Source: Syntrophus gentianae (GTDB lineage: Bacteria; Desulfobacterota; Syntrophia; Syntrophales; Syntrophaceae). Taken from it: a stretch of 64,000 bases of DNA. The stretch spans positions 1 to 64,000 of the forward strand of contig NZ_FOBS01000005.1 in NCBI RefSeq assembly GCF_900109885.1, written 5' to 3'. This document shows, in pieces, positions 3,628 through 44,741 of this stretch (its first letter is position 1; each line of letters opens with the position of its first letter). The position numbers and the translations under genes were made by a program. A model generated the notes under the pieces. The model was not told the DNA's origin and searched no databases. It worked only from the letters and a program-made list of their open reading frames with translations.

Positions 3628-4731
3628 CTACTTATTCCCTCTGTGTTTCTTTGCTTCTTCCCACATCTCGCCAAAGGCCTTTTCCGTCTTCTCGCTCATG
3701 ACCTGCCAGATTGCCACCGTCTTGAAATAGTCATTATCACCCACATGGAAAAGGGCTTTTTCCTCCGAAGTTACCAGGGGTCCCGCATTGCTCACAACCG
3801 GAGAAACACCCTGATTCTTGACAACAGCTGCCTGCGCTTCCGGCGAAAGCTGCAGATTGATCCATTCCTCGCATAGTTTCTTTTTCATGCCCTTCGCCGC
3901 CCGTGTGATGCACCAGTAATCAATCCAGGCAGTCCCGCCTTCTCTTGGCGAGGCAATTAACCACTTTCCGCCTTTCTTGTTCGCCTGTGCGGCAGCGAAT
4001 CCCCAATCGGTGGCAAGGGCTAACTGGGGGAATTCTTCCGGATTTGCCGAGCCATCCCAGAGGCTTTTTGCATTCTGTGCCAGAATATTCAGTTTTTCCT
4101 GAATTCTGTTCCGCTCCAGTTTATCGATATCGAATATCTGTTCGTAACGATACCCCAGGGCCAGGGCGGTAATCCAGACATTACATTTGGGAAAGTTATT
4201 GTTGATGGTGTATTTTCCTTTATATTGCGGGTCCCAGAGGATGTTCCAGCTCTTTGGGGCTTCCTTGACGACGTCCGTGTTATAATCCAGTCCATAAGGC
4301 CCACAGTTGTAAGGCAGGCCATAACGTTTTCCCTTATGGATCAGGGATTGGTCTTTCATGAAAAAGGGAAGAATCTTCCTGGCATTGGGGATGTTTCTCA
4401 TATCCAGCTCGGCAAGGAGATATCTTCCCTCATGAAAGGCGTAGAATCGTGGTGTTTTTGCTACATCAGCCGGCGGAGAGATAAGGTCGGCAGTACCATC
4501 CTTCGCTGCCTTGTAGAATTCATCCTGATCCTTTGGGTAATAGGTTTTAACCTCAACGTCTATCTTATACTTCTTTTTGATCAGGTCTTTAAATTCCTTG
4601 ACCGTTGCTGCATCCGCATACCCTTCCCAGCATGTGATCCGAATGGTTTCCTGGGCCGCCTGTGACGGTCGAGTTCCGATAAGAAGAATGGCCAGAGAAA
4701 CGACAACAAACCCAAAAACTATCTTTTTCAT
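3628..4731 (-). CDS. ABC transporter substrate-binding protein, PotD/PotF-like
   Basis: A 367-residue periplasmic binding protein. A Sec signal peptide (MKKIVFGFVVVSLAILLIGT, cleavage probably after SQA-A) is followed by ITCWEGYADAATVKEF, the strand-turn that begins spermidine/putrescine-type binding proteins, and the two-lobe pattern expected of the cluster D fold. Polyamine and small-amine ligands are typical of the family, which makes a cationic amine such as ethanolamine a possible ligand by context only. No permease or ATPase gene lies beside it; its neighbours are an outer-membrane barrel (4846-5688) and the exported ammonia-lyase gene (5867-8227) upstream on the same strand. It may serve a distant transporter or act as a scavenging binder. 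Confidence 0.85.
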   Translation of the reverse strand: MKKIVFGFVVVSLAILLIGTRPSQAAQETIRITCWEGYADAATVKEFKDLIKKKYKIDVEVKTYYPKDQDEFYKAAKDGTADLISPPADVAKTPRFYAFHEGRYLLAELDMRNIPNARKILPFFMKDQSLIHKGKRYGLPYNCGPYGLDYNTDVVKEAPKSWNILWDPQYKGKYTINNNFPKCNVWITALALGYRYEQIFDIDKLERNRIQEKLNILAQNAKSLWDGSANPEEFPQLALATDWGFAAAQANKKGGKWLIASPREGGTAWIDYWCITRAAKGMKKKLCEEWINLQLSPEAQAAVVKNQGVSPVVSNAGPLVTSEEKALFHVGDNDYFKTVAIWQVMSEKTEKAFGEMWEEAKKHRGNK

Positions 4732-4845: not shown

Positions 4846-5688
4846 TTATATTTTAAAATCGAATGAAATACCCCCATAGAAGAAATCGGAATCCCGGCCA
4901 TTGAAGCTGCTTGCCTTGATCCGTTCCCGGGCATTCGAGCTCAGAGGAAAGGAATACTGGATCTTGGGTATGATTGAGAAGAAACTGTTCACGGGCACGG
5001 TCAAACCTGTCCAGACGTTCCCGTCGTGGAGGTCGGAAAAGTCTTCCGTGGACTTGTTGTTGTAGTAGCTGACCCAACCGCCCATATCCCAGGTCCAGTC
5101 CTGATAGATTTTAAATCCGTGGGATACGGATAGACTCGTGTACCAGGCCTCCCCGGTCTCTATTTCCCTGTATACGCTGAGCGTGGGTTTGAGAAGCAGG
5201 TCGAGGGCCAGCGTCACGAAGACTTCCTGGTTGGTGGTCGGGCTGTCCCCATTAAAGCCATCCGTGTCATAATAGATCCATCCCACGGTATAATCCAGTT
5301 TCAACGGGCTGATCTTGTTGCTGTAGGTCAGCGTCAGATCTGTTTCCTGTATTTTTGTTTCGTCCTCTTTTCCACGTGCCGGATTATTGAAATCGGTGTC
5401 GAAATCAACCCACACATTGACGGCAAAGCCCTTGTAACCGACGGTGACACTGGGGAAGATGACCAGGCTGTCCTTGCTCAGTTCGAGACCCCGCCAGACG
5501 TACTTACTGTAGAAGGCCGCGTTGAAATTCGCGGTCAGATCTTCAGGGATCGCTTTCATCCCCGGCTTCAGTATCGTTTGCTCAACCGCTTTCTCCGGCG
5601 CCGCATCCTGAGCATAGGAATATGTCCCTAAAATTATCCCCAGCATCAACAAGACGATGACAGCAACCCCTTGAACGAACGCCTTCAT
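4846..5688 (-). CDS. Outer-membrane beta-barrel protein (TorF/gcw_chp porin-like)
   Basis: A 280-residue protein with a Sec signal peptide ending near TYSYAQD, then alternating hydrophobic strands rich in aromatic residues and a C-terminal strand ending ISFDFKI. The mature start NAAFYSKYVWRGLELSKDS matches the 'S-x-Y-x-WRG' opening of putative porins of the TIGR02001/TorF type, and later segments read as paired strands with acidic turns. It should sit in the outer membrane and admit small solutes. It lies 178 bp downstream of the ammonia-lyase fusion, separated by a strong hairpin, and upstream of the amine-type binding protein. The assignment to a barrel is firm; the exact family and solute are not. 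Confidence 0.7.
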   Translation of the reverse strand: MKAFVQGVAVIVLLMLGIILGTYSYAQDAAPEKAVEQTILKPGMKAIPEDLTANFNAAFYSKYVWRGLELSKDSLVIFPSVTVGYKGFAVNVWVDFDTDFNNPARGKEDETKIQETDLTLTYSNKISPLKLDYTVGWIYYDTDGFNGDSPTTNQEVFVTLALDLLLKPTLSVYREIETGEAWYTSLSVSHGFKIYQDWTWDMGGWVSYYNNKSTEDFSDLHDGNVWTGLTVPVNSFFSIIPKIQYSFPLSSNARERIKASSFNGRDSDFFYGGISFDFKI

Positions 5689-5866: not shown

Positions 5867-8227
5867 TCAGCCTAGCCGCCGACTGCTGTCCACGGACTTG
5901 CCAACCAGTTCCCGGAGGATCGTGACGGTTTCATGTGCCGCTTCACGAGGCGACAAGGCCGTGTCGGCAATATTGCACACGAGTTTCGTGATGTCGTGAT
6001 CAATCGACTTATCGCTCCACTTTTTGCCCTTTACCACGGTGATGTAGACCGAATAGGAGTGATGCATGGTCCCGGGCCTTTCACCGATGACGTGCAGAAT
6101 CCCCCGGAATTCATTGGGATTGGCCTTTTCAAAGAGCAACTCGCCGATCCGATATCCGGCACGGACCCTTCCGCTTGTCACCACGATGTTCTTATCGCTC
6201 ATCTTAGCGCCGGCCTCTGAAAGCAGCTTTCTGATTTCATCCAGATAGGGGGCAAGGTGACCGTCATCCATAATGGCATCGGCATTCAGGCCGTCGGAGA
6301 TCACGATCTGGCCTTTGGGAAGATCGGCTCCCCAGGAATTTTTCAGATTCTCCAGTGCTGCAGTCGCTTCAGGACTGAGCTTTTCCCCTGTCTCCGGGTG
6401 GGCAATATAGTCATTGCGGTCTTTGGACAAAGTCATGACCGGCACGGCGCCGGGAATGGCCTTGACAAAGTCGGGCTTGAGTTCCGACCAGAGGGATTTC
6501 TTGGCATCGTCATACAATGCCTTGACCTTGGCCTCCAACTTGGGATTGAGATCCCAGATATTCTTGCCATGGCCAATGGCCAGATCAACGCCTCTATCTT
6601 CCACTTCCTTCATCTTCTTCCGACCCTCGGCATAGATGGCGCTTCGAGTGCGTTTATCCCCTTTGGCAAGGCAGTACTTGTAGTAGACCCAGAGCGGATC
6701 GCCGAAATGATTGGTATATTTGTTGTTCTTATCCACGATCTCCAGTCGCTTGTAGAAGTCCCACATGGCGTCGTTGACCTTGTACCCGAATTTCTGCCTC
6801 AGCCGGACATGATCCTGGAACGACGTCGAGAGATAGCTCAACATGGGGTCATTCTTGGTGGGCAGGGCGATCAGGTAGGCAGGATTCGCCGGCATGACCT
6901 GATCCTGGCACCAGTCCAGGTCATCCAGACTGACCGTCATGTGCAGCGTTGAACAGACATCGAGTCCGATGGTTAAGCCATGGAGTTTCCCCATGGCGAT
7001 ATCTTCCAGACAGCATCTCACCAGTTGCTCGCGGGTCTTGAAGACCTCCGGACCGATGAATCCGGCAACATCATTGATGTGGAGCCAGGCCCCCTTGGGC
7101 TGCACCTCGGCCAGGATTTTCCCGACTGCCCGACTGAACCCGTACTTGCGGGATTCGAGCACCATCATGTCCACCCCATTGGCCGCGCCATTCGTGAATT
7201 CGGAGCCCTGACCGGTCTCAAAATAAAGTCCGTACCGCTCCCCCCGTTTCCCTCTGGCATAGCTGAGAATCTTTTCGATGGTGACATCAAAGGTTTTGTT
7301 ACAGTCATCCGTGCCGGCAAGACTCTGGAACATGGTGGCAACGGTTCCCGGATATTTCCGACTTACCTCTGACTGGACGTCAATATGGGAAAGTACGCAC
7401 CAGGGTACAATATCCTTCAGTTTGAAGGCATCGACGACGTCCTTGAGCGCCTTTTCGACCACAGCGACACTCTTGACCTGACTGTCCACGGGATTGGTGC
7501 CGATGACGATATCTCCCGTCGCATAGGAAAAGGCATCAAAGACCTGCCACATGACGTCATCGGGATGATCCGTGGGGGAATTGGGTTGGATCCTGGCGCC
7601 CATGTAGCCCTTTGCCCCGAGTTTGGTGCCTGGAATGACGTTGAAGATCTTCTGTCCAAGGGTGGTCAGCTCTTCATTGGTCATTAACTTCGGGACACAG
7701 CCAATGATGTCGCTGGTGAGACCGTTCATGATGCCCTTGATCTCGGCCTCTGATTTCGTCAAGAGGAATTCCTTCAACTGGCCCATGGTCCAGCCCTTCA
7801 CCTTCGCGTACTGGGAGGAATCGGTCGTCTTCCAGATCAGCTTCTGCAGGTTGTCCTCAAACAGGGGGTGCTCGTACAGATCGCTGATTCTGGTGTTTGC
7901 CAGAAGCGCCCGGGCATTCTGCCGGGTTGCTTCATCTTTGGCTCCCACCCCGATGGTCACATCGCCTTCCTTGAAGTCATTTGCCGCCCCGATCACCTGC
8001 TGGTAGAGTTTCTGGTCAAAGGCCCCTTTGATCCTCGTGATGTAGGCGAAGACATCCTCGCCCGGCGTTACCTCCCCGACCGCAATAGGGGGCGTCGCCT
8101 CGCCCGCAAAGGCCTTTCTCTCCGCAAGGGTATAACCCGCAAGGGCAGCACTCGCAACGCCCATCGCTGCGAGGAAAGTTCTACGGGACATTCCTTCAAA
8201 TCCCTTCAGTGACTGTTCCCTTTCCAT
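5867..8227 (-). CDS. eutBC: Fused ethanolamine ammonia-lyase (EutB-EutC) with a Tat signal peptide
   Basis: A single 786-residue chain in which an EutB-like domain (about 55-515) is followed by an EutC-like domain (about 540-770). The adenosylcobalamin enzyme cleaves ethanolamine to acetaldehyde and ammonia; normally the two subunits are separate cytosolic proteins. Residues matching the EutB active site are present: Arg212 and Gln214 in ARIQPN, Asn245 in IGTNP, Glu337 in YFETGQGS, Asp423 in IGLDVCST. The EutC half keeps VISDGLNADA, SGRVRAGYRIGE and GERPG (715-719). The N-terminus is unusual: SRRTFL (14-19), a moderately hydrophobic stretch and AFA-G form a canonical twin-arginine signal, implying export of the folded enzyme. 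AAGGAGG lies five bases before the ATG. Upstream genes encode alcohol dehydrogenase and AOR. No EutA reactivase or shell protein is in the window. Domain identity is secure; location and exact substrate are inferred. Confidence 0.88.
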   Translation of the reverse strand: MEREQSLKGFEGMSRRTFLAAMGVASAALAGYTLAERKAFAGEATPPIAVGEVTPGEDVFAYITRIKGAFDQKLYQQVIGAANDFKEGDVTIGVGAKDEATRQNARALLANTRISDLYEHPLFEDNLQKLIWKTTDSSQYAKVKGWTMGQLKEFLLTKSEAEIKGIMNGLTSDIIGCVPKLMTNEELTTLGQKIFNVIPGTKLGAKGYMGARIQPNSPTDHPDDVMWQVFDAFSYATGDIVIGTNPVDSQVKSVAVVEKALKDVVDAFKLKDIVPWCVLSHIDVQSEVSRKYPGTVATMFQSLAGTDDCNKTFDVTIEKILSYARGKRGERYGLYFETGQGSEFTNGAANGVDMMVLESRKYGFSRAVGKILAEVQPKGAWLHINDVAGFIGPEVFKTREQLVRCCLEDIAMGKLHGLTIGLDVCSTLHMTVSLDDLDWCQDQVMPANPAYLIALPTKNDPMLSYLSTSFQDHVRLRQKFGYKVNDAMWDFYKRLEIVDKNNKYTNHFGDPLWVYYKYCLAKGDKRTRSAIYAEGRKKMKEVEDRGVDLAIGHGKNIWDLNPKLEAKVKALYDDAKKSLWSELKPDFVKAIPGAVPVMTLSKDRNDYIAHPETGEKLSPEATAALENLKNSWGADLPKGQIVISDGLNADAIMDDGHLAPYLDEIRKLLSEAGAKMSDKNIVVTSGRVRAGYRIGELLFEKANPNEFRGILHVIGERPGTMHHSYSVYITVVKGKKWSDKSIDHDITKLVCNIADTALSPREAAHETVTILRELVGKSVDSSRRLG

Positions 8228-8319
8228 GATTGCCTCCTTTTCGATGATCTGATGGTTTCAAAATACAGCCTGCTATATCTTTCCCGGCCATGCTTTATCT
8301 ATAAGGTTGCTTTCCTGCA

Positions 8320-9486
8320 CTACAGTGCCCCTTTGTAGATGGAAATGATATCGTTGAGCGTGGGGCCGCGGGGATTGGTGAGCCCACAGGCGTCCCTCTG
8401 GGCATTTTCCGCCATCGTTTTAAGATCTTCCTCTTTCACCCCCAGTTCCGTCAAACTGGTCGGAATGCCGACATCGGCGGAGAGCTTCCTGATTGCTTCA
8501 AGAGCCTTGTCCGCAGCGGCGCGGGGAGACAGCCCTTCAATGTTTTCTCCCATCGCCCTGGCGATATCCCCGAAGCGGTCCACTTTGGCAATCAGATTGA
8601 AGGCCTCGACATGGGGGAGTAAAATGGCATTGCAGACACCGTGGGGAAGATTGTAGAAACCGCCCAGCTGGTGGGCCATGGCGTGAACGTAACCCAGGCT
8701 TGCGTTGTTGAAGGCCATACCGGCCAGGTATTCGGCGTACGCCATGTTGTCGCGCGCGGTCATGTCTGAACCGTTGGCCACCGCCACACGAAGGTTTCCG
8801 GCGATCAGATCGATCGCCTTCAGGGCACAGGCGTCGGTTACCGGGGTCGCAATCGTCGAGACATACGCCTCAACGGCGTGGGTCAGGGCATCCATTCCCG
8901 TTGCTGCGGTCAGCCCCGGAGGCATGCCGGCCATCAGCAGAGGATCATTGATGGCCACGTTGGGGGTCACTCGCCAGTCAATAATGGCCATTTTTACATG
9001 ATTGCTGGTGTTGGTGATGATGCAGAACCGGGTCATTTCACTGGCCGTCCCTGCGGTGGTGTTGATGGCGATGAAGGGAGGCATCGCCTTTCCGGACTTG
9101 TCCACCCCTTCATAGTCCCGGATGGAGCCGCCATTGGTGGACACAATCCCGATCCCCTTGGCGCAGTCATGGGCGCTGCCACCGCCCAGGGAGATGATCA
9201 AATCACACTTTTCGTCCTGGAAGATCCTGAGCCCGTCATGGACGTTGGTGTCCGTCGGGTTGGGCACGGTTTCATCGAAAACAATGCAGTCAACTCCGGC
9301 ATCCTGTTTCACCAGGTCCACGATCTTCCGGGTGATGCCGGATTGGGTAATCCCCTTGTCGGTACAGATGAAAGGTTTCCTGCCTCCAAACACCGTTACC
9401 TGCCTGCCGGTTTCCTTGTGGGCGCCAACCCCCATCAACGTCACTGTCGGAATAAAAAATCCGAATACTTGTTCGCCAATAGCCAT
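8320..9486 (-). CDS. Iron-containing (group III) alcohol dehydrogenase
   Basis: A 388-residue NAD(P)-dependent alcohol dehydrogenase of the iron-activated family (relatives: FucO, EutG, AdhB). The nucleotide-binding loop SLGGGSAHDCAKGIG is at 99-113, and the metal ligands expected from FucO align to Asp199, His203 (in DALTHAVEAY), His268 and His282 (in LPHGVCNAIL). Length is typical. It should interconvert acetaldehyde and ethanol in the cytoplasm. Placed 92 bp upstream of the ammonia-lyase fusion on the same strand, it probably disposes of the acetaldehyde, or oxidises ethanol in the reverse direction. The ATG has AAGGAGGGATACC before it. Other short alcohols remain possible substrates. Confidence 0.93.
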   Translation of the reverse strand: MAIGEQVFGFFIPTVTLMGVGAHKETGRQVTVFGGRKPFICTDKGITQSGITRKIVDLVKQDAGVDCIVFDETVPNPTDTNVHDGLRIFQDEKCDLIISLGGGSAHDCAKGIGIVSTNGGSIRDYEGVDKSGKAMPPFIAINTTAGTASEMTRFCIITNTSNHVKMAIIDWRVTPNVAINDPLLMAGMPPGLTAATGMDALTHAVEAYVSTIATPVTDACALKAIDLIAGNLRVAVANGSDMTARDNMAYAEYLAGMAFNNASLGYVHAMAHQLGGFYNLPHGVCNAILLPHVEAFNLIAKVDRFGDIARAMGENIEGLSPRAAADKALEAIRKLSADVGIPTSLTELGVKEEDLKTMAENAQRDACGLTNPRGPTLNDIISIYKGAL

Positions 9487-9579: not shown

Positions 9580-11313
9580 TCACTTGATATCCCAGAAGGA
9601 ATCAATCTCTTCACCGGTAAAATCCCAGACGACGTTGTGCGGTGGAACGGGTTCGTACTCGAAAAATTCAGGAAGTCGGTCGTGCTTGTTCGTGAACCCG
9701 GCAGCCAGATTGAATTCGTGTTCCCTGAGGAGGATCTCCTTGCCCAGTGACTGTCCTTCATCGACAGTCATTGCAACGCCGACCTTTGCATTCAGCATAT
9801 CCATCATGGCCGGAAAGACGACCGGGTTGTCCAGCGTCGGAAAGGCCACAAAGATGCACAGACCGGTACTGTCGATAAAGGCCGTGGCAATCTGCAGATT
9901 CCGGCTGAGCGCCACCTGCCCCTCCTTCGAAAGGGGATCGATGAAACCGCCAACCTTGAGGACATTGGTTGCGATCGCATATCCCGCCGTATGGTCTGAT
10001 CCCATGGTAGAGGTTGCGTAGGTAATGCCGATCCCCTTGATGGCTCTCGGATCATAGGCGGACAACCCCTGGTCTTTGACCACCGGCACCCGGGTCTGAC
10101 CGTAAATCTTGCCCACCGCCGCCGTTCCCGCACCGATGATTCGGCCCAGGGGTGTTCCCGTCCGAATTTCGTCCAGCAACCGGAGCAGGCCGGGCCCGTC
10201 GCCGAAGGGAAGGACCCCTGCTTCCATGGCAACGGCCACGGCATCGCTGAGTTCAATCGTATCAATGCCGATATCATCCATGAGGTTGTCGGCCTCTGCC
10301 AGGATATCCAGATCATCGATACAGCAGTTGGCCCCAAGCCCCCAGATCGTTTCGTACTCAAAACCGGAGGTTGCAAAGTGTTTTTCGGCGTCATTGTAGA
10401 CCTGCGAGCATTGGATGACGCACCCGGTATGGCAGCCATGACTCGGTTTTCCTGAGCGGCTGACGATGACATCGTACAGGGTTTCCCCGCTTATTTTTGC
10501 ATGTCCCTCGAATTGGCCATAACGGAAATTTCGAGTGGGCAGCCCACCGACTTCATTGAGGATATTAATTAATACATCGGTGCCGTACTGCTTCAATGCC
10601 TGACCGCTGACCGCATGCTCGAGGAGAGCCTTGGCAAATACCTTTGCCGCAGCTTTGAATTTTTCCGGATCGGCAATGTGGACTCCCGGACCATCGCTTT
10701 CATCAATGGTAATATATTTGATCTTTTTGGAACCCATGACGGCGCCCAGTCCGCCGCGGCCCAAACTACGGATATAGTCATCCCGGGTCCTTACGGAGAT
10801 ATTCGCCGCTGCCATCCGCATTTCTCCCGCCGGACCGATGGAGAGAATCCCGATTTTACCTCCGAATTTTTGGGTCAGCGTGTTCATCACCTCATAGTTG
10901 CCCTTGCCGACCAATTCCGTGTCTTCCTGAATCGTGACCCCATTCTTGTCCACATGCAGGGAATAAAAGGTGTCTTTCTGAGGCACCCCTTCGATAATCA
11001 GGGCTTTGATACCCAGATGTGCAAAATGCTGGGCGGCATTTCCGCCTGAGTTACACTCTTTAATGGTTCCCGTGAGGGGGCTTTTGGCTCCCGCTGAAAG
11101 CCGGCCTGAATTCGCACAGGTTGTCCCCCCAAGGAGTCCCGGGGCAAAGATCAGTTTGTTGTATCGGCCCAGGGCATGACAGGTGGGTTTCACTTCCTCG
11201 GCGACAATCGTCGAGGTCAGCCCCCTGCCGCCCAGTCCCTTCCATCTTTCCGGCACATCCTCAGATGAGACCGTCAGGCTGCTCATATCGATGCGATAGA
11301 TCTTCTCTGCCAT
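9580..11313 (-). CDS. Aldehyde:ferredoxin oxidoreductase (tungsten AOR family)
   Basis: A 577-residue member of the tungsten-pterin AOR family. The [4Fe-4S] ligands are Cys294, Cys298 and Cys302 in GCHTGCVIQC and Cys486 in DSTGLC; the pterin-binding N-terminal domain shows GGRGLTSTI and SLGRGGLGAVMGSKKIK (183-199). Conserved Glu321/His441 positions correspond to EYETIWG and DHTAGYA. It oxidises aldehydes to carboxylates while reducing ferredoxin, or runs in reverse. It is the first gene of the unit that continues with alcohol dehydrogenase and the EutBC fusion, so acetaldehyde is the natural candidate substrate. An AAGGAGGATATC precedes the ATG. No leader peptide is present, so it is cytoplasmic, unlike the predicted location of the lyase. 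Confidence 0.93.
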   Translation of the reverse strand: MAEKIYRIDMSSLTVSSEDVPERWKGLGGRGLTSTIVAEEVKPTCHALGRYNKLIFAPGLLGGTTCANSGRLSAGAKSPLTGTIKECNSGGNAAQHFAHLGIKALIIEGVPQKDTFYSLHVDKNGVTIQEDTELVGKGNYEVMNTLTQKFGGKIGILSIGPAGEMRMAAANISVRTRDDYIRSLGRGGLGAVMGSKKIKYITIDESDGPGVHIADPEKFKAAAKVFAKALLEHAVSGQALKQYGTDVLINILNEVGGLPTRNFRYGQFEGHAKISGETLYDVIVSRSGKPSHGCHTGCVIQCSQVYNDAEKHFATSGFEYETIWGLGANCCIDDLDILAEADNLMDDIGIDTIELSDAVAVAMEAGVLPFGDGPGLLRLLDEIRTGTPLGRIIGAGTAAVGKIYGQTRVPVVKDQGLSAYDPRAIKGIGITYATSTMGSDHTAGYAIATNVLKVGGFIDPLSKEGQVALSRNLQIATAFIDSTGLCIFVAFPTLDNPVVFPAMMDMLNAKVGVAMTVDEGQSLGKEILLREHEFNLAAGFTNKHDRLPEFFEYEPVPPHNVVWDFTGEEIDSFWDIK

Positions 11314-11477: not shown

Positions 11478-12818
11478 TCACGACTTGATCCAGAAAAGGA
11501 CCAGCACGTAGAGTGCCGCGATCGCCAGTTGACACAGGGTAATCGGCAGACCGAAATGCAGAAATCTCGCGAAGGTTATGCGTCTGCCGTGATTCGCACA
11601 GATCCCGGCGGCCACGATGTTGGCAGAGGCGCCGATCAGGGTCGCATTGCCACCGAGGGTCCCACCGAACATCATGGCAATGAACACGGGGATCGTCGCC
11701 GCCGGCCAGTCAGTGAAACCTGCTGCCAGTGCACCTTCCGGCACGGCTTCCACCATGACGAGGTAGCCTTTGATCATCAGAAGCGATACCGCAACAACGG
11801 GAATGTTGGCCAGCAGGCTCGATAAGGCCCCGACTCCCGCCAGCATGACCAGTGCAACCACGAGGAATCCCCGGCCGAACCAGCCATCGAGTTTCAGAGA
11901 CAGCCCCTGCAGAAGACCTGTCCGCGTGATCCCCTCGACCAGACAGAAGATGGCCAGCAGGAACACCAGGGTTTTCCAGTCGATGTCACGGATGATGTTC
12001 TCAACCGGTTCAACCCTTGCGCCGGCAACAACCAGCAGGGCAAGCGTAGCAGCGATGATCGATACCGCAGGCGGCACGATCCGTGTGGGAAGGTCCTCGC
12101 CCACGAGAAACAGGACAACCATGATCAGGAGGACGACGAAGGCGAACAGGGCGAACCATGGCCGTTCAATGGTCGGCAGGGTCACTTCTTCAGACAGAGG
12201 AAGGTTCCTGCGCCAGACGTCGCCCATGAGTCGGGGCAACAAGGGGACAATGGCCAATACCGCAAGCAGGCCGCCGAAACTCACCTGCCGAAGATACTGA
12301 CCGAAGGTCATCCCGATCGAACTCCCCACAAGAAAGGTCGCAGGATCGCCCACCAGCGTGAGCAATCCTGCCGCATTGCTGATGATTGCCGTCATGACCA
12401 TCGGCCCGACGAAGTCCACCTCGAGCGCCTGAGCAACCCGGATGATGACCGGCGCCAGCAGGATCACCGTTGTCGCGTTTGGCAGAAAGGCACAGACAGG
12501 AGCGACCAGCAGAACCAGGAGGATTAGATATCGCTTGCCGCTTCCCCGGGTAGCCCGCAGGAACAGGAACCCGACACGTTCGAAAATGCCGGTTTTCGAC
12601 AGTACGCGCGCCACCACCATCCCGCCGAACAGCAGGGCAAGCGGTCCCCCCGCCGTCCTTGCTGCCGACAGAATTTCCTTTTCTCCAAGAATGCCGAGTA
12701 CAAACATCACACTGACGCCAAGGAGCGCCGCGATCATCATGTCGATCACGTCGAAGGCAATCACCAGAATGACGGAGGCGAAGATGCCAAGGGTCAGATA
12801 AATCTGCAGGTCACTCAT
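11478..12818 (-). CDS. SLC13/ArsB/NhaD-type ion permease
   Basis: An integral membrane protein of 446 residues with about eleven hydrophobic helices. It has the ion-transporter superfamily layout: two similar halves, a re-entrant motif FLPNATTVILLAPVIIR in the first and LANIPVVAVSLLMI followed by GGNATLIGASANIVAAGI in the second. These Asn-Pro/Thr and GGNATLIG segments fit ArsB/NhaD/P-protein relatives, which move anions or exchange sodium for protons. The substrate cannot be assigned from sequence. The gene follows the binding protein at 12834 by 15 bp and may be co-transcribed with it, although such permeases do not normally use a binding protein. Confidence 0.82.
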   Translation of the reverse strand: MSDLQIYLTLGIFASVILVIAFDVIDMMIAALLGVSVMFVLGILGEKEILSAARTAGGPLALLFGGMVVARVLSKTGIFERVGFLFLRATRGSGKRYLILLVLLVAPVCAFLPNATTVILLAPVIIRVAQALEVDFVGPMVMTAIISNAAGLLTLVGDPATFLVGSSIGMTFGQYLRQVSFGGLLAVLAIVPLLPRLMGDVWRRNLPLSEEVTLPTIERPWFALFAFVVLLIMVVLFLVGEDLPTRIVPPAVSIIAATLALLVVAGARVEPVENIIRDIDWKTLVFLLAIFCLVEGITRTGLLQGLSLKLDGWFGRGFLVVALVMLAGVGALSSLLANIPVVAVSLLMIKGYLVMVEAVPEGALAAGFTDWPAATIPVFIAMMFGGTLGGNATLIGASANIVAAGICANHGRRITFARFLHFGLPITLCQLAIAALYVLVLFWIKS

Positions 12819-12833
12819 GAGTGTTTATCCTCG

Positions 12834-13874
12834 TCAGCGCAGCGGGGGGGCGTACATCAGACCTCCCCTGGTCCAGAGCCGGTTAGGGCCGCGATCGAGC
12901 TGCAACGCACTGCTGCGCCCCAGGTTGCGATCAAACATTTCTCCATAATTCCCCGCCGCCTGGACGGCCCGGACCGCCCAGCCCTCGCGCAGTCCCAGTG
13001 CCTTGCCAAAGCCCCCCTCCAATCCTGCAGCGCGGCGGAGGACCGGATGACGGCTGTCGCGCATCAAGGCAACGATGTTGTCTTGCGTAAGGTTGTTTTC
13101 TTCCGCCGTGATTAACGCAAACAGCACCCAGCGCACGATGGTAAACCAGTCATCGTCGCCGCGGCGGACAATGGGTCCGAGCGGTTCCTTGGAGATGCGC
13201 TCGGGAAGGATGACAAAGGCCCGAGGTCCGCCGGGGGCCCGTAAGCGCATGGCGGCAAGCTGTGAGGCATCTGAGGTACAGGCACGACAACGGCCCGAAT
13301 AGAAGGCGTCCGTTACTTCCCTGACGGAATCAAGCACCAGCGTCTTTACCTGCATATTCCTGAAAGCAAAGGAATCGGCAAGGTTCTGGACGTGCGTGGT
13401 TCCCTTCTCGACACAGACCATCGCACCATTCAGCTCCTCGATCTTCCGTACGCCTTTCTTTTCCGGGACCATGAATCCCTGGCCGTCGAAGAACAGAATC
13501 CCGGGAAACTGTACCTTGAGGCCCGCTTCACGGCCCAGCGTCCAGGTTGTGTTGCGAACCAGGAGATCGATCTTCCCGGCCTGCAATGCGGGGAAGCGGG
13601 CAGATGCCTTGAGCGGTACGAATTCAACCCTCTCCGGGTCCCCGATCACCGCTGCCGCCACCGCCCGGCAAAAGTCCACATCGAGTCCGGTCCAGCGGCC
13701 GGCGTTATTCCTCTCCGAAAAGCCGGCAATCCCCTCGCTCACTCCGCAGCGCAGTATGCCCCTGGACTTGACGGCATCGAGAGTCTCCCCGGCAAATCCC
13801 GGAGGAACCCCAACGGTGAGCACAAGCAATATCGCCAGGATCGACAGCACCAAAAAACGCTCAACGGTTTTCAT
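12834..13874 (-). CDS. General L-amino-acid ABC binding protein (AapJ-like)
   Basis: A 346-residue periplasmic protein: signal peptide ending at GFAGE, then LDAVKSRGILRCGVSEGIAG and WTGLDVDFCRAVAAAVIGD, the opening pattern of AapJ/BztA amino-acid binding proteins, with KASARFPALQAGKIDLL and CRACTSDASQLAA later. Length matches the long AapJ branch (about 340 residues) rather than the shorter HisJ type. It should bind polar amino acids in the periplasm. No AapQ/AapM/AapP genes are adjacent, so it is an orphan in this window. It sits 44 bp after pqiC and 15 bp before an ion permease on the same strand. Confidence 0.88.
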   Translation of the reverse strand: MKTVERFLVLSILAILLVLTVGVPPGFAGETLDAVKSRGILRCGVSEGIAGFSERNNAGRWTGLDVDFCRAVAAAVIGDPERVEFVPLKASARFPALQAGKIDLLVRNTTWTLGREAGLKVQFPGILFFDGQGFMVPEKKGVRKIEELNGAMVCVEKGTTHVQNLADSFAFRNMQVKTLVLDSVREVTDAFYSGRCRACTSDASQLAAMRLRAPGGPRAFVILPERISKEPLGPIVRRGDDDWFTIVRWVLFALITAEENNLTQDNIVALMRDSRHPVLRRAAGLEGGFGKALGLREGWAVRAVQAAGNYGEMFDRNLGRSSALQLDRGPNRLWTRGGLMYAPPLR

Positions 13875-13918
13875 CGCTTTAACCCTCTTTCGTGCCCACC
13901 CGCTTCAGGCATTCCGGT

Positions 13919-14509
13919 TCAAGGCTTCTGCGCTTCGAACTCCCGGATGGTCGCGGCAATCTCGCCGCTCAATCGCCCGAGTGCCCGGCTGTGCGCCGCC
14001 ACCAGTTCGGCATAACCGTCCCCCTGCACCGGCTCGGTCATCGTTGTACGACCGCTGCGAGACGGACCCTTCGTCCTGGAACTCACCGTCCAGAGGACAT
14101 CCAGGGTGGCCCCTTTGCCGAGCTCCGATTCAAACCGGAGAACATCGATCCCGGCTCGATACGTCGCTTCTGCAGCCGAAGATTGGGGGAACACGCTGAC
14201 TTGCGGCGTCCCGAGCATCGAAGCGAGATTATCGGCAATCACCCGGGCAATATCGCTCTTCAGCGGAGCAGCCCACCGGTCGTATTCAGCGAGGGAAACC
14301 TGGTTCGGACCCGTCCGGACCAAAATCTGCGGCCGGTCGACGCTGGCAGGAATCGAGACAGGGCCGACGGAGATGGAGAGATTGGCCGATGCCGCACCAG
14401 CCGGCATTGCCGAAGGGCTCAGCGTATAGAATTTCGACGGCTGGGTAGAAGCACAACCCGCAAACAGAGCGGTGAATGTACAAAGGATGAGGATAGCGAG
14501 TCTGTTCAT
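13919..14509 (-). CDS. pqiC: PqiC-like outer-membrane lipoprotein (ABC-type transport auxiliary)
   Basis: A 196-residue lipoprotein with lipobox FAGC (Cys19) and the family hallmark KFYTLSP just after it. PqiC anchors the lower end of the PqiB tunnel at the outer membrane in the paraquat-inducible intermembrane lipid-transport system. The rest shows the alternating beta/alpha pattern of the family, including VGPVSIPASVDRPQILVRTG and YDRWAAPL. The start codon overlaps the pqiB stop by four bases, so the two are translationally coupled. Membership is clear; transported lipid unknown. Confidence 0.9.
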   Translation of the reverse strand: MNRLAILILCTFTALFAGCASTQPSKFYTLSPSAMPAGAASANLSISVGPVSIPASVDRPQILVRTGPNQVSLAEYDRWAAPLKSDIARVIADNLASMLGTPQVSVFPQSSAAEATYRAGIDVLRFESELGKGATLDVLWTVSSRTKGPSRSGRTTMTEPVQGDGYAELVAAHSRALGRLSGEIAATIREFEAQKP

Positions 14510-42989: not shown

Positions 42990-44741
42990 TTATTCTGCCT
43001 TGTCTGTGCCGGCGAGTTGACGGATGGCCTTCACGTACTCCTGGATAAGCAGGTCAAAAAAGGCAGGGTCCACCGGTCCTTTCAAGGTTTCTATCTCATA
43101 GAATCGCCTGGGGATGGTTATATCCTCTGGTCGAAATCCGCAGGCAAAACGGCTCTGCCACCGCAGCTGCTGAATGTTCCGGGAAACCGTCCCGAGATTA
43201 TCGGCAAGGGTACCGAAGCCTATGGTCTTCAGGCACTTGGCGAGCAGTTCGTCCGTATAGACGTTGCGGGCGAAGAGACAGGCGACCATGGAGGTGAGAA
43301 GGACCCTTCCCTGTTCATCCTTGACCAGAAAATCAACGGCCTTGGTCAGGTCCTGGCCCTTTTCCTTCTGGTCGTAAGCATAACCGCCGCTATCCAGATG
43401 GGAGTGGCGAAGCCCGAGAGCCTGCGAGGTAAAGAAAACCTCTCCCGTCGCATACCCCGCCATCTCCTGGCCGAGTACGCAGGCATAATCCTTACCGCCG
43501 AAATGTTCCGCCGCCTTCAGTGTCCCCTGTCCGAGGAGACGGTAGAATTCATTCGAACCTTCTCCGAGGAACTCCATCGCTTTCTTGTATCCTTCGCTGT
43601 AGCCGAAGGAGAGGGGAACGATCGTCTCCTTTTCCGAAAGAATTCCCTTCTCCGTAGCTTCAGTGGCCCAGGCAAGGGCTACGCCCGCCGACATGACATC
43701 GAGCCCCATCTTCTCGGCGATGTCAATGATCGCCAGGACCGCGAAGCTATTATCCACCGAGAGCATCGATCCCACGGCAAAGATCGGCTCGTGGTCATAG
43801 GAGACCTGACGGTAGAGGTACCGGTGCTCCTTCTGAAAGCGCTCCCGCACAAACCCGATATGGATGCACCCCACGGGACAGCCTGCGCAGGCGGAGTTTC
43901 GCAGCAGCGTATTTTCCGCAAACTGTTCTCCGGTAATGTTGCTGATGACAGGATCGCTTGTCCGCTGGAGGTTCCGAATGGGCAACATCTTCAGTTCATT
44001 CAGCAACGCCATGTTTATCGGCGTGCCGATGTCGTGGTACTTGCTCATCATGTCGGTATCGGTGAGCTTTGCATAGACTTCCTGAAAGAGTTTCGAGTAA
44101 TCTTTGGAGTCAGGGAGCGGAAATACCGCGTCGCCATTTATCACGATGGCCTTGAGATTCTTACTGCCCATCACCGCCCCGCATCCGAGCCTTCCGAAAT
44201 GCCGGTAGGTATCGACGTTGATTCCTGCGATGGCGATTCCCTTCTCTCCTGCCGGTCCGATGCGCAGGTTGCTTCGATGTCCCGCCCCTTTGAATAACCC
44301 GCGCAGCATTTTCCCTGTCTCAAACACGTCCTTGCCCCACAGGTAAGAGACATCCCTTATCTCCAGATGGCGGGAGCCGACATTTACGCAGGAGGGCTTT
44401 GTCGCCTTGCCTGTGATGACCAGGGCGTCAAGGTCCGCAAAACGTAGCGAGAGTGCGGAGCGCCCGCCACCGTGACTCTCCGCATACTGATCGTGGTAGG
44501 GAGATTTGAAGGCGCAGACGGTTTTGCTCATCAACGGAAAGTAACCGGTAAGCGGCCCGATGGCGAAGATGAGGGGCTGATCCGGATCGTTCCACGGTCG
44601 GTCGGGATGGCTATACTTGTTGAACAGGAAGGCGGCAAGTCCGCTGCCGCCGGCAACCGTGTCTCTCCCTTCCAGAATTGCCACGGCGCCACGGCCAGTA
44701 ACCAGATCAACGATAAGCACTCTGAAAAAATCTCGGATCAT
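42990..44741 (-). CDS. Second tungsten aldehyde:ferredoxin oxidoreductase
   Basis: A 583-residue AOR-family subunit. Cluster ligands are Cys285, Cys288 and Cys292 in CAGCPVGC and Cys488 in SMVACLFARN; pterin contacts include RHFGRLGCGAVMGSKNLK (180-197). It overlaps the upstream four-cluster ferredoxin gene by four bases (ATGA), so the pair should form one complex, as in AorAB-type and related heteromeric enzymes. It is clearly divergent from the first AOR at 9580, with a different cysteine spacing (CxxC rather than CxxxC), so another aldehyde or a carboxylic-acid reduction is likely. Cytoplasmic, with no signal peptide. Confidence 0.9.
   Translation of the reverse strand: MIRDFFRVLIVDLVTGRGAVAILEGRDTVAGGSGLAAFLFNKYSHPDRPWNDPDQPLIFAIGPLTGYFPLMSKTVCAFKSPYHDQYAESHGGGRSALSLRFADLDALVITGKATKPSCVNVGSRHLEIRDVSYLWGKDVFETGKMLRGLFKGAGHRSNLRIGPAGEKGIAIAGINVDTYRHFGRLGCGAVMGSKNLKAIVINGDAVFPLPDSKDYSKLFQEVYAKLTDTDMMSKYHDIGTPINMALLNELKMLPIRNLQRTSDPVISNITGEQFAENTLLRNSACAGCPVGCIHIGFVRERFQKEHRYLYRQVSYDHEPIFAVGSMLSVDNSFAVLAIIDIAEKMGLDVMSAGVALAWATEATEKGILSEKETIVPLSFGYSEGYKKAMEFLGEGSNEFYRLLGQGTLKAAEHFGGKDYACVLGQEMAGYATGEVFFTSQALGLRHSHLDSGGYAYDQKEKGQDLTKAVDFLVKDEQGRVLLTSMVACLFARNVYTDELLAKCLKTIGFGTLADNLGTVSRNIQQLRWQSRFACGFRPEDITIPRRFYEIETLKGPVDPAFFDLLIQEYVKAIRQLAGTDKAE

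Follow-up and report, generated by a model that had tools for sequence, protein, structure and literature searches.

A single-chain ethanolamine ammonia-lyase with a twin-arginine leader in Syntrophus gentianae and its family of predicted exported relatives

Can an adenosylcobalamin (AdoCbl) radical enzyme work outside the cytoplasm? To our knowledge, such enzymes are regarded as strictly intracellular, because it is inside the cell that ATP is spent on making and repairing their cofactor. The question is raised by one gene in a 64,000-nucleotide stretch of Syntrophus gentianae DNA (contig NZ_FOBS01000005.1, positions 1 to 64,000; hereafter the window), which encodes an ethanolamine ammonia-lyase (EAL) whose EutB and EutC parts form a single chain behind a twin-arginine translocation (Tat) leader. 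The window protein is an EAL family member by its domains, residues, and fold, with AdoCbl binding and activity predicted, and almost all of its close relatives bear an export signal of one type or another. Judged from these comparisons, the B12 radical reaction of the family probably takes place outside the cytoplasm. A light- and oxygen-sensitive radical cofactor would then either be carried out within the folded enzyme or be loaded outside. An exported AdoCbl radical enzyme would be new, the nearest precedent being the reductive dehalogenases, which do not use adenosyl radical chemistry.

The EAL precursor is encoded on the minus strand by an uninterrupted frame of 786 residues, running from 8227 down to 5867, and is the only EAL copy in the host genome. 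Its EutB domain (residues 75–506; 6710..8005, minus strand) and EutC domain (residues 551–775; 5903..6577, minus strand) are recognized by Pfam at E = 2.2e-144 and E = 2e-31, with scores of 482 and 109.6 bits that each exceed the curated cut-off; the Pfam scan of the chain returned only these two domains and no RdhA domain. The NCBIfam EutB model scores 641.7 bits, above its cut-off, and the NCBIfam EutC equivalog model 80 bits, under its cut-off of 230. Six tested active-site residues of E. coli EutB (R160, Q162, N193, E287, D362, and F329) correspond to R212, Q214, N245, E337, D423, and F390 of the window protein and are unchanged in 31 of the 31 exported members aligned, and the EutC motifs SDGL (644–647), GRV (686–688), and GERPG (715–719) are conserved. 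Solved EALs match both parts of the chain along its length in sequence searches, and an AlphaFold model of middling confidence (pLDDT 66) superposes on E. coli EutB (3abo_A; Z 26.1, 404 residues aligned) and on EutC (5ysr_D; Z 18.2, 223 residues aligned). The original prediction, made from the letters of the window alone, had described both EAL subunits fused in one 786-residue protein with active-site residues and GERPG in place, and had proposed alignment and modeling as checks; the frame, the domains, the mapped residues, and the fold all agree with it, on a strand that it had not stated.

The leader (residues 1–41; 8105..8227, minus strand) reads MEREQSLKGFEGMSRRTFLAAMGVASAALAGYTLAERKAFA, followed by G, and combines the twin-arginine (RR) motif SRRTFL, an uncharged stretch of 19 residues, and, at AFA-G, an AxA site where cleavage is predicted by eye only. 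A ribosome-binding site, AAGGAGG (8233..8239, minus strand), lies 5 nucleotides before the ATG, and all of these elements had been anticipated. TatC is encoded in the host genome, as it is in 28 of the 29 genomes that hold the exported family. It could be argued that the RR motif arose by chance or from a wrong start, and that this is simply a cytosolic EAL of the usual kind: the RR rule is passed by 1.35% of shuffled leaders and by 9 of 286 neighboring open reading frames (ORFs), so at the 1–3% level a lone case could be accidental, and a leaderless, cytosolic fused EutBC is known in another lineage (L030–L032). Conservation across relatives settles the question, with one kind of leader or the other in 37 of the 38 family members. 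A start-site error, which the original prediction had named as a way in which it could fail, is likewise unlikely, because the strong ribosome-binding site precedes the upstream ATG and the only in-frame Met codons ahead of residue 148, itself inside the EutB domain, are at 1, 13, and 22, of which Met 13 would still retain the RR. Family-wide leaders and this Met spacing together rule out a chance leader or wrong start, and the cytosolic alternative, largely contradicted by the comparative data, is hardly credible.

The relatives were gathered from public genomes, from members of the same order and phylum, and from plasmids, and their leader classes are rule-based calls. The 38 members counted, which include two fragments and one frameshifted copy, come from Desulfobacterota, Acidobacteriota, and rhizobia, among them Sinorhizobium meliloti with its plasmid pSymA. 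Where fully compared, they are 53–79% identical to the query, one divergent sister excepted, and canonical EutB is about 35% identical or less. Twenty-one members carry a Tat-type leader and 16 a Sec-type (general secretory) leader without an RR core; the one member without a visible leader is the divergent sister, L065. The class was set by eye for L039, L046, L048 (over-long ORFs), and L063; the assignments of L063 (MRRAIGKLL) as Sec and of L016 as a weak Tat call are arguable, and in the Tat member L008 the RR is followed by LAGC, a lipobox-like ending of the lipoprotein kind. The original prediction had held that it would fail if homologues of the same subfamily lacked the RR motif: 16 of them do, which tells against a common pathway, and the prediction of export as such stands.

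In phylogenetic analysis, the exported family splits from cytosolic and canonical EutB with a support of 100/100. The RR leader is common to all members of the window's own well-supported clade and to a second clade of five. The whole-chain tree places two Tat groups (14 rows, 96/100; 5 rows, 100/100) among the Sec rows, and therefore at least one switch of pathway took place while export was kept; export, rather than Tat, is the family trait as read from these leaders. Two leader-type changes are the shortest account, and the tree favors the Tat leader having arisen twice, with a single Tat clade not rejected (p-AU 0.353). Ten of 11 genomes checked have no EAL besides the exported protein. 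The remaining one, a Bradyrhizobium, also has a canonical EAL; when 385 genomes of its class were searched by profile, the family turned up in that genome only, so it is rare there. Cytosolic, leaderless EutB–EutC fusions of other Desulfobacterota (L030–L032) cluster with E. coli EutB, and the fusion therefore arose separately in that lineage.

Several members are of separate interest. The divergent leaderless sister (L065, 6104 onward) is a second copy in genome G134, which also holds a Sec-type copy. An Ensifer canadensis copy (L080, 5818–8219) lies in two overlapping frames and may be a pseudogene. The genetically tractable S. meliloti carries a Tat-type member on its symbiotic plasmid (L049, CP140920 pSymA, 11971–14319), annotated simply as EutB and near adhP and phosphoketolase. 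FixK-type boxes considered upstream of the rhizobial copies match no better than random.

From these data it appears fairly likely that the window encodes an exported, catalytic, AdoCbl-dependent single-chain EAL that Tat sends to the periplasm, with acetaldehyde handled in the cytoplasm; this reading is supported by the invariance of the catalytic residues and by the recurrence of two unrelated types of export signal across almost the whole family. Having EutB and EutC in one chain would allow a single leader to take both halves out of the cytoplasm. In Tat members, the window's included, the chain most likely acquires both its fold and its cobalamin, adenosylated by CobA/BtuR, while still in the cytoplasm and before export. 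Ethanolamine would cross the outer membrane, probably via a neighboring porin-like barrel, and be concentrated by a solute-binding protein (SBP); the periplasmic EAL would convert it into ammonia and acetaldehyde, and the acetaldehyde would diffuse back, to be oxidized by an aldehyde:ferredoxin oxidoreductase (AOR) or reduced by an iron-dependent alcohol dehydrogenase (Fe-ADH), both cytoplasmic.

The candidates for these roles adjoin the EAL, in the minus-strand order AOR, Fe-ADH, EAL, barrel, SBP, with gaps of about 90–180 bases. The AOR (9580..11313, minus strand; Pfam), which would likely convert acetaldehyde to acetate, and the Fe-ADH (8320..9486, minus strand; Pfam and NCBIfam), likely acting between acetaldehyde and ethanol, are leaderless. 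The porin-like outer-membrane barrel of the Gcw_chp type (4846..5688, minus strand) has a leader and a weak Pfam match of 20.5 bits, below cut-off; its homologue in the Sec-type locus L013 scores 26.2 bits, above cut-off, and such a barrel adjoins the EAL in many Sec-type loci. The PotD/YdcS-like periplasmic SBP (3628..4731, minus strand) has no adjacent permease of the ATP-binding cassette (ABC) type and is 63–79% identical to SBPs beside Sec-type EALs. The set of SBP, barrel, and AOR recurs at Sec-type loci, and among Tat loci is found only in the window.

Further afield, a second AOR in the window (42990–44741) is 69% identical to one near the Tat-type EAL of L006. Tat-type loci L006, L009, L011, L015, and L050 adjoin homologues of window genes found within about 50 kb of the EAL (window 1585–58207), namely glycogen phosphorylase, Pta, acetate kinase, pyruvate kinase, DUF2950, DUF3300, an RND efflux system, and an AI-2E transporter; this recurring set around Tat-type EALs looks like an energy and survival gene island.

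The two leader types bear on how the cofactor would be loaded. Sec leaders lack the RR, and their cargo would therefore be exported unfolded and acquire its cofactor outside. At most Sec-type loci, a membrane protein, C3, and an ABC importer resembling BtuD, BtuF, and BtuC directly follow the EAL; the best NCBIfam models for the importer ATPase (two loci) and permease (three loci) are corrinoid ones, below cut-off. Counting only loci with sufficient flank, the importer is present at 6 of 8 Sec loci and 0 of 18 Tat loci (Fisher p 1e-4, not corrected for relatedness), and C3 at 10 of 13 and 0 of 18, respectively (Fisher p 6e-6, also uncorrected). C3 is a 260-residue protein with no Pfam family (L012:11549-12331, L013:12352-13134, L056:10622-11419). 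Genome-wide, it occurs only alongside Sec-type exported EALs (12 of 15 such genomes, one by a short partial match) and in none of the 30 other genomes tested, comprising 14 with the Tat type and 16 with a cytosolic EAL only. A role of the importer as tungsten supplier for AOR is disfavored, as the two do not consistently co-occur. For a TonB receptor lying downstream of L012, siderophore and PqqU receptor models give the best scores and BtuB a weaker one; it was not used as evidence.

The original prediction had the holoenzyme folded with its cofactor and then exported by Tat, which is possible for the window, given its RR leader, TatC, and catalytic residues, but fails for the Sec members. 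Two cofactor routes may coexist, Tat members exporting folded holoenzyme and Sec members being loaded in the periplasm from a corrinoid stream, helped by C3; we put this forward tentatively. Somewhat less probable is that every member leaves as apo-enzyme and takes up cobamides once outside, from the periplasm or the surroundings, so that it would not matter whether the leader is of Tat or Sec type. The 16 relatives with Sec-type leaders, the corrinoid-like importer just downstream at most Sec loci, and the change of leader type at least once in the family all fit such capture, whereas the absence of the importer from all 18 Tat loci counted and the general use of Tat for proteins folded in the cytoplasm argue against it.

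Two further explanations would do without a periplasmic enzyme altogether. The leader might serve as a membrane anchor or remain unprocessed, leaving the enzyme at or on the cytoplasmic side, where AOR and Fe-ADH also reside; the membrane association of the Acinetobacter baumannii EAL, which is not described with a leader (PMC9426561), lends this some plausibility. We nevertheless regard it as improbable, since RR leaders with AxA sites or typical Sec hydrophobic regions recur family-wide despite sequence divergence and genes nearby encode periplasmic and outer-membrane proteins. Even less can be said for an exported protein that is no enzyme in vivo and binds or scavenges cobamide or ethanolamine. 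The corrinoid-type importer and the orphan SBP linked at related loci, together with the missing reactivase, would suit a scavenger, yet binding alone would hardly require substrate-binding and catalytic residues to be invariant in every member aligned, and enzymes that handle aldehydes adjoin the EAL; we hold this very improbable.

Against periplasmic catalysis by a Tat-exported EAL stand several observations. Leader classes were assigned by rule, and Tat cannot be indispensable in a family with Sec-type relatives. Outside the window's genome, Tat-type EALs have no SBP, porin, or AOR1 beside them, and a search for a cobalamin riboswitch near the window locus or the relatives' loci found none. 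AdoCbl chemistry sits uneasily with a periplasm devoid of ATP, reactivase, and adenosyltransferase. Because canonical EAL forms a large oligomer, assembly would have to follow export.

The host's own equipment bears on the supply and upkeep of the cofactor. Its genome encodes a CobA/BtuR adenosyltransferase, and a search of it for a PduO-type enzyme found none. It has no full-length EutA, the sole match being fragmentary, 58 positions within a frame of 420 residues that is probably an FtsA-like protein; EutA matches in most genomes are similarly short, in frames of roughly 415 residues that are probably FtsA-like, with full-length EutA only in G306, G217, and G390. Full-length EutA is missing from nearly all genomes with an exported EAL and also from most of the cytosolic-EAL genomes compared, and its absence is therefore no mark of the exported type. 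Genome G306 encodes its full-length EutA (G306:C175:13779-15173) on a different contig from the only EAL found in it, a Sec-type exported one. Microcompartment shell genes are absent from the EAL's immediate neighbors, a genome-wide search for them not having been made. Missing EutA and shell are not fatal, because the A. baumannii EAL works without metabolosome or EutA (PMC9426561); for the same reason, freedom from a shell, proposed earlier as a consequence of export, is nothing special to it.

Full-text literature searches, which mostly do not cover subscription papers, returned no report of an exported EAL. The fusion itself is no novelty, having been described in 2012 in Pelobacter carbinolicus, a species with strains able to grow on ethanolamine; by that report, its neighbors are periplasmic SBPs, multitransmembrane proteins, a corrinoid-like ABC importer, and AOR, with no eutA, and the section on the fusion is silent on a leader or export (PMC3543383). 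As far as that section goes, eutBC1 and eutBC2 resemble the window locus in fusion, SBP, AOR, and lack of eutA, whereas the window's EAL has a Tat leader and is accompanied by neither an importer nor a membrane protein of the C3 type. The cytosolic EutBC of L030–L032 is likewise one ORF, but leaderless, about 28% identical, and separately fused. EutBC of E. coli (3abo), Salmonella, and Listeria (2qez) shares with the window protein its domains, fold, six active-site residues, and SDGL, GRV, and GERPG motifs; the window protein differs in its single chain, export leader, about 30% identity, and lack of adjoining EutA or eut operon genes, the canonical arrangement of separate eutB and eutC with eutA alongside being replaced by a fused gene among AOR, Fe-ADH, porin-like, and SBP neighbors. 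A. baumannii EutBC, which is membrane-associated by microscopy, consists of two subunits and is not described as exported (PMC9426561). The reductive dehalogenases RdhA and PceA are cobamide enzymes with an RR leader that Tat exports pre-folded to the periplasmic side (PMC6095959), but they form an unrelated protein family with Fe-S clusters and a respiratory role. Set against these systems, the exported form, its export and activity predicted from sequence, adds a new version to the known EALs. What makes it interesting is that a whole family would export a radical B12 enzyme, and that natural Tat and Sec variants of one enzyme make the question of cofactor loading directly testable.
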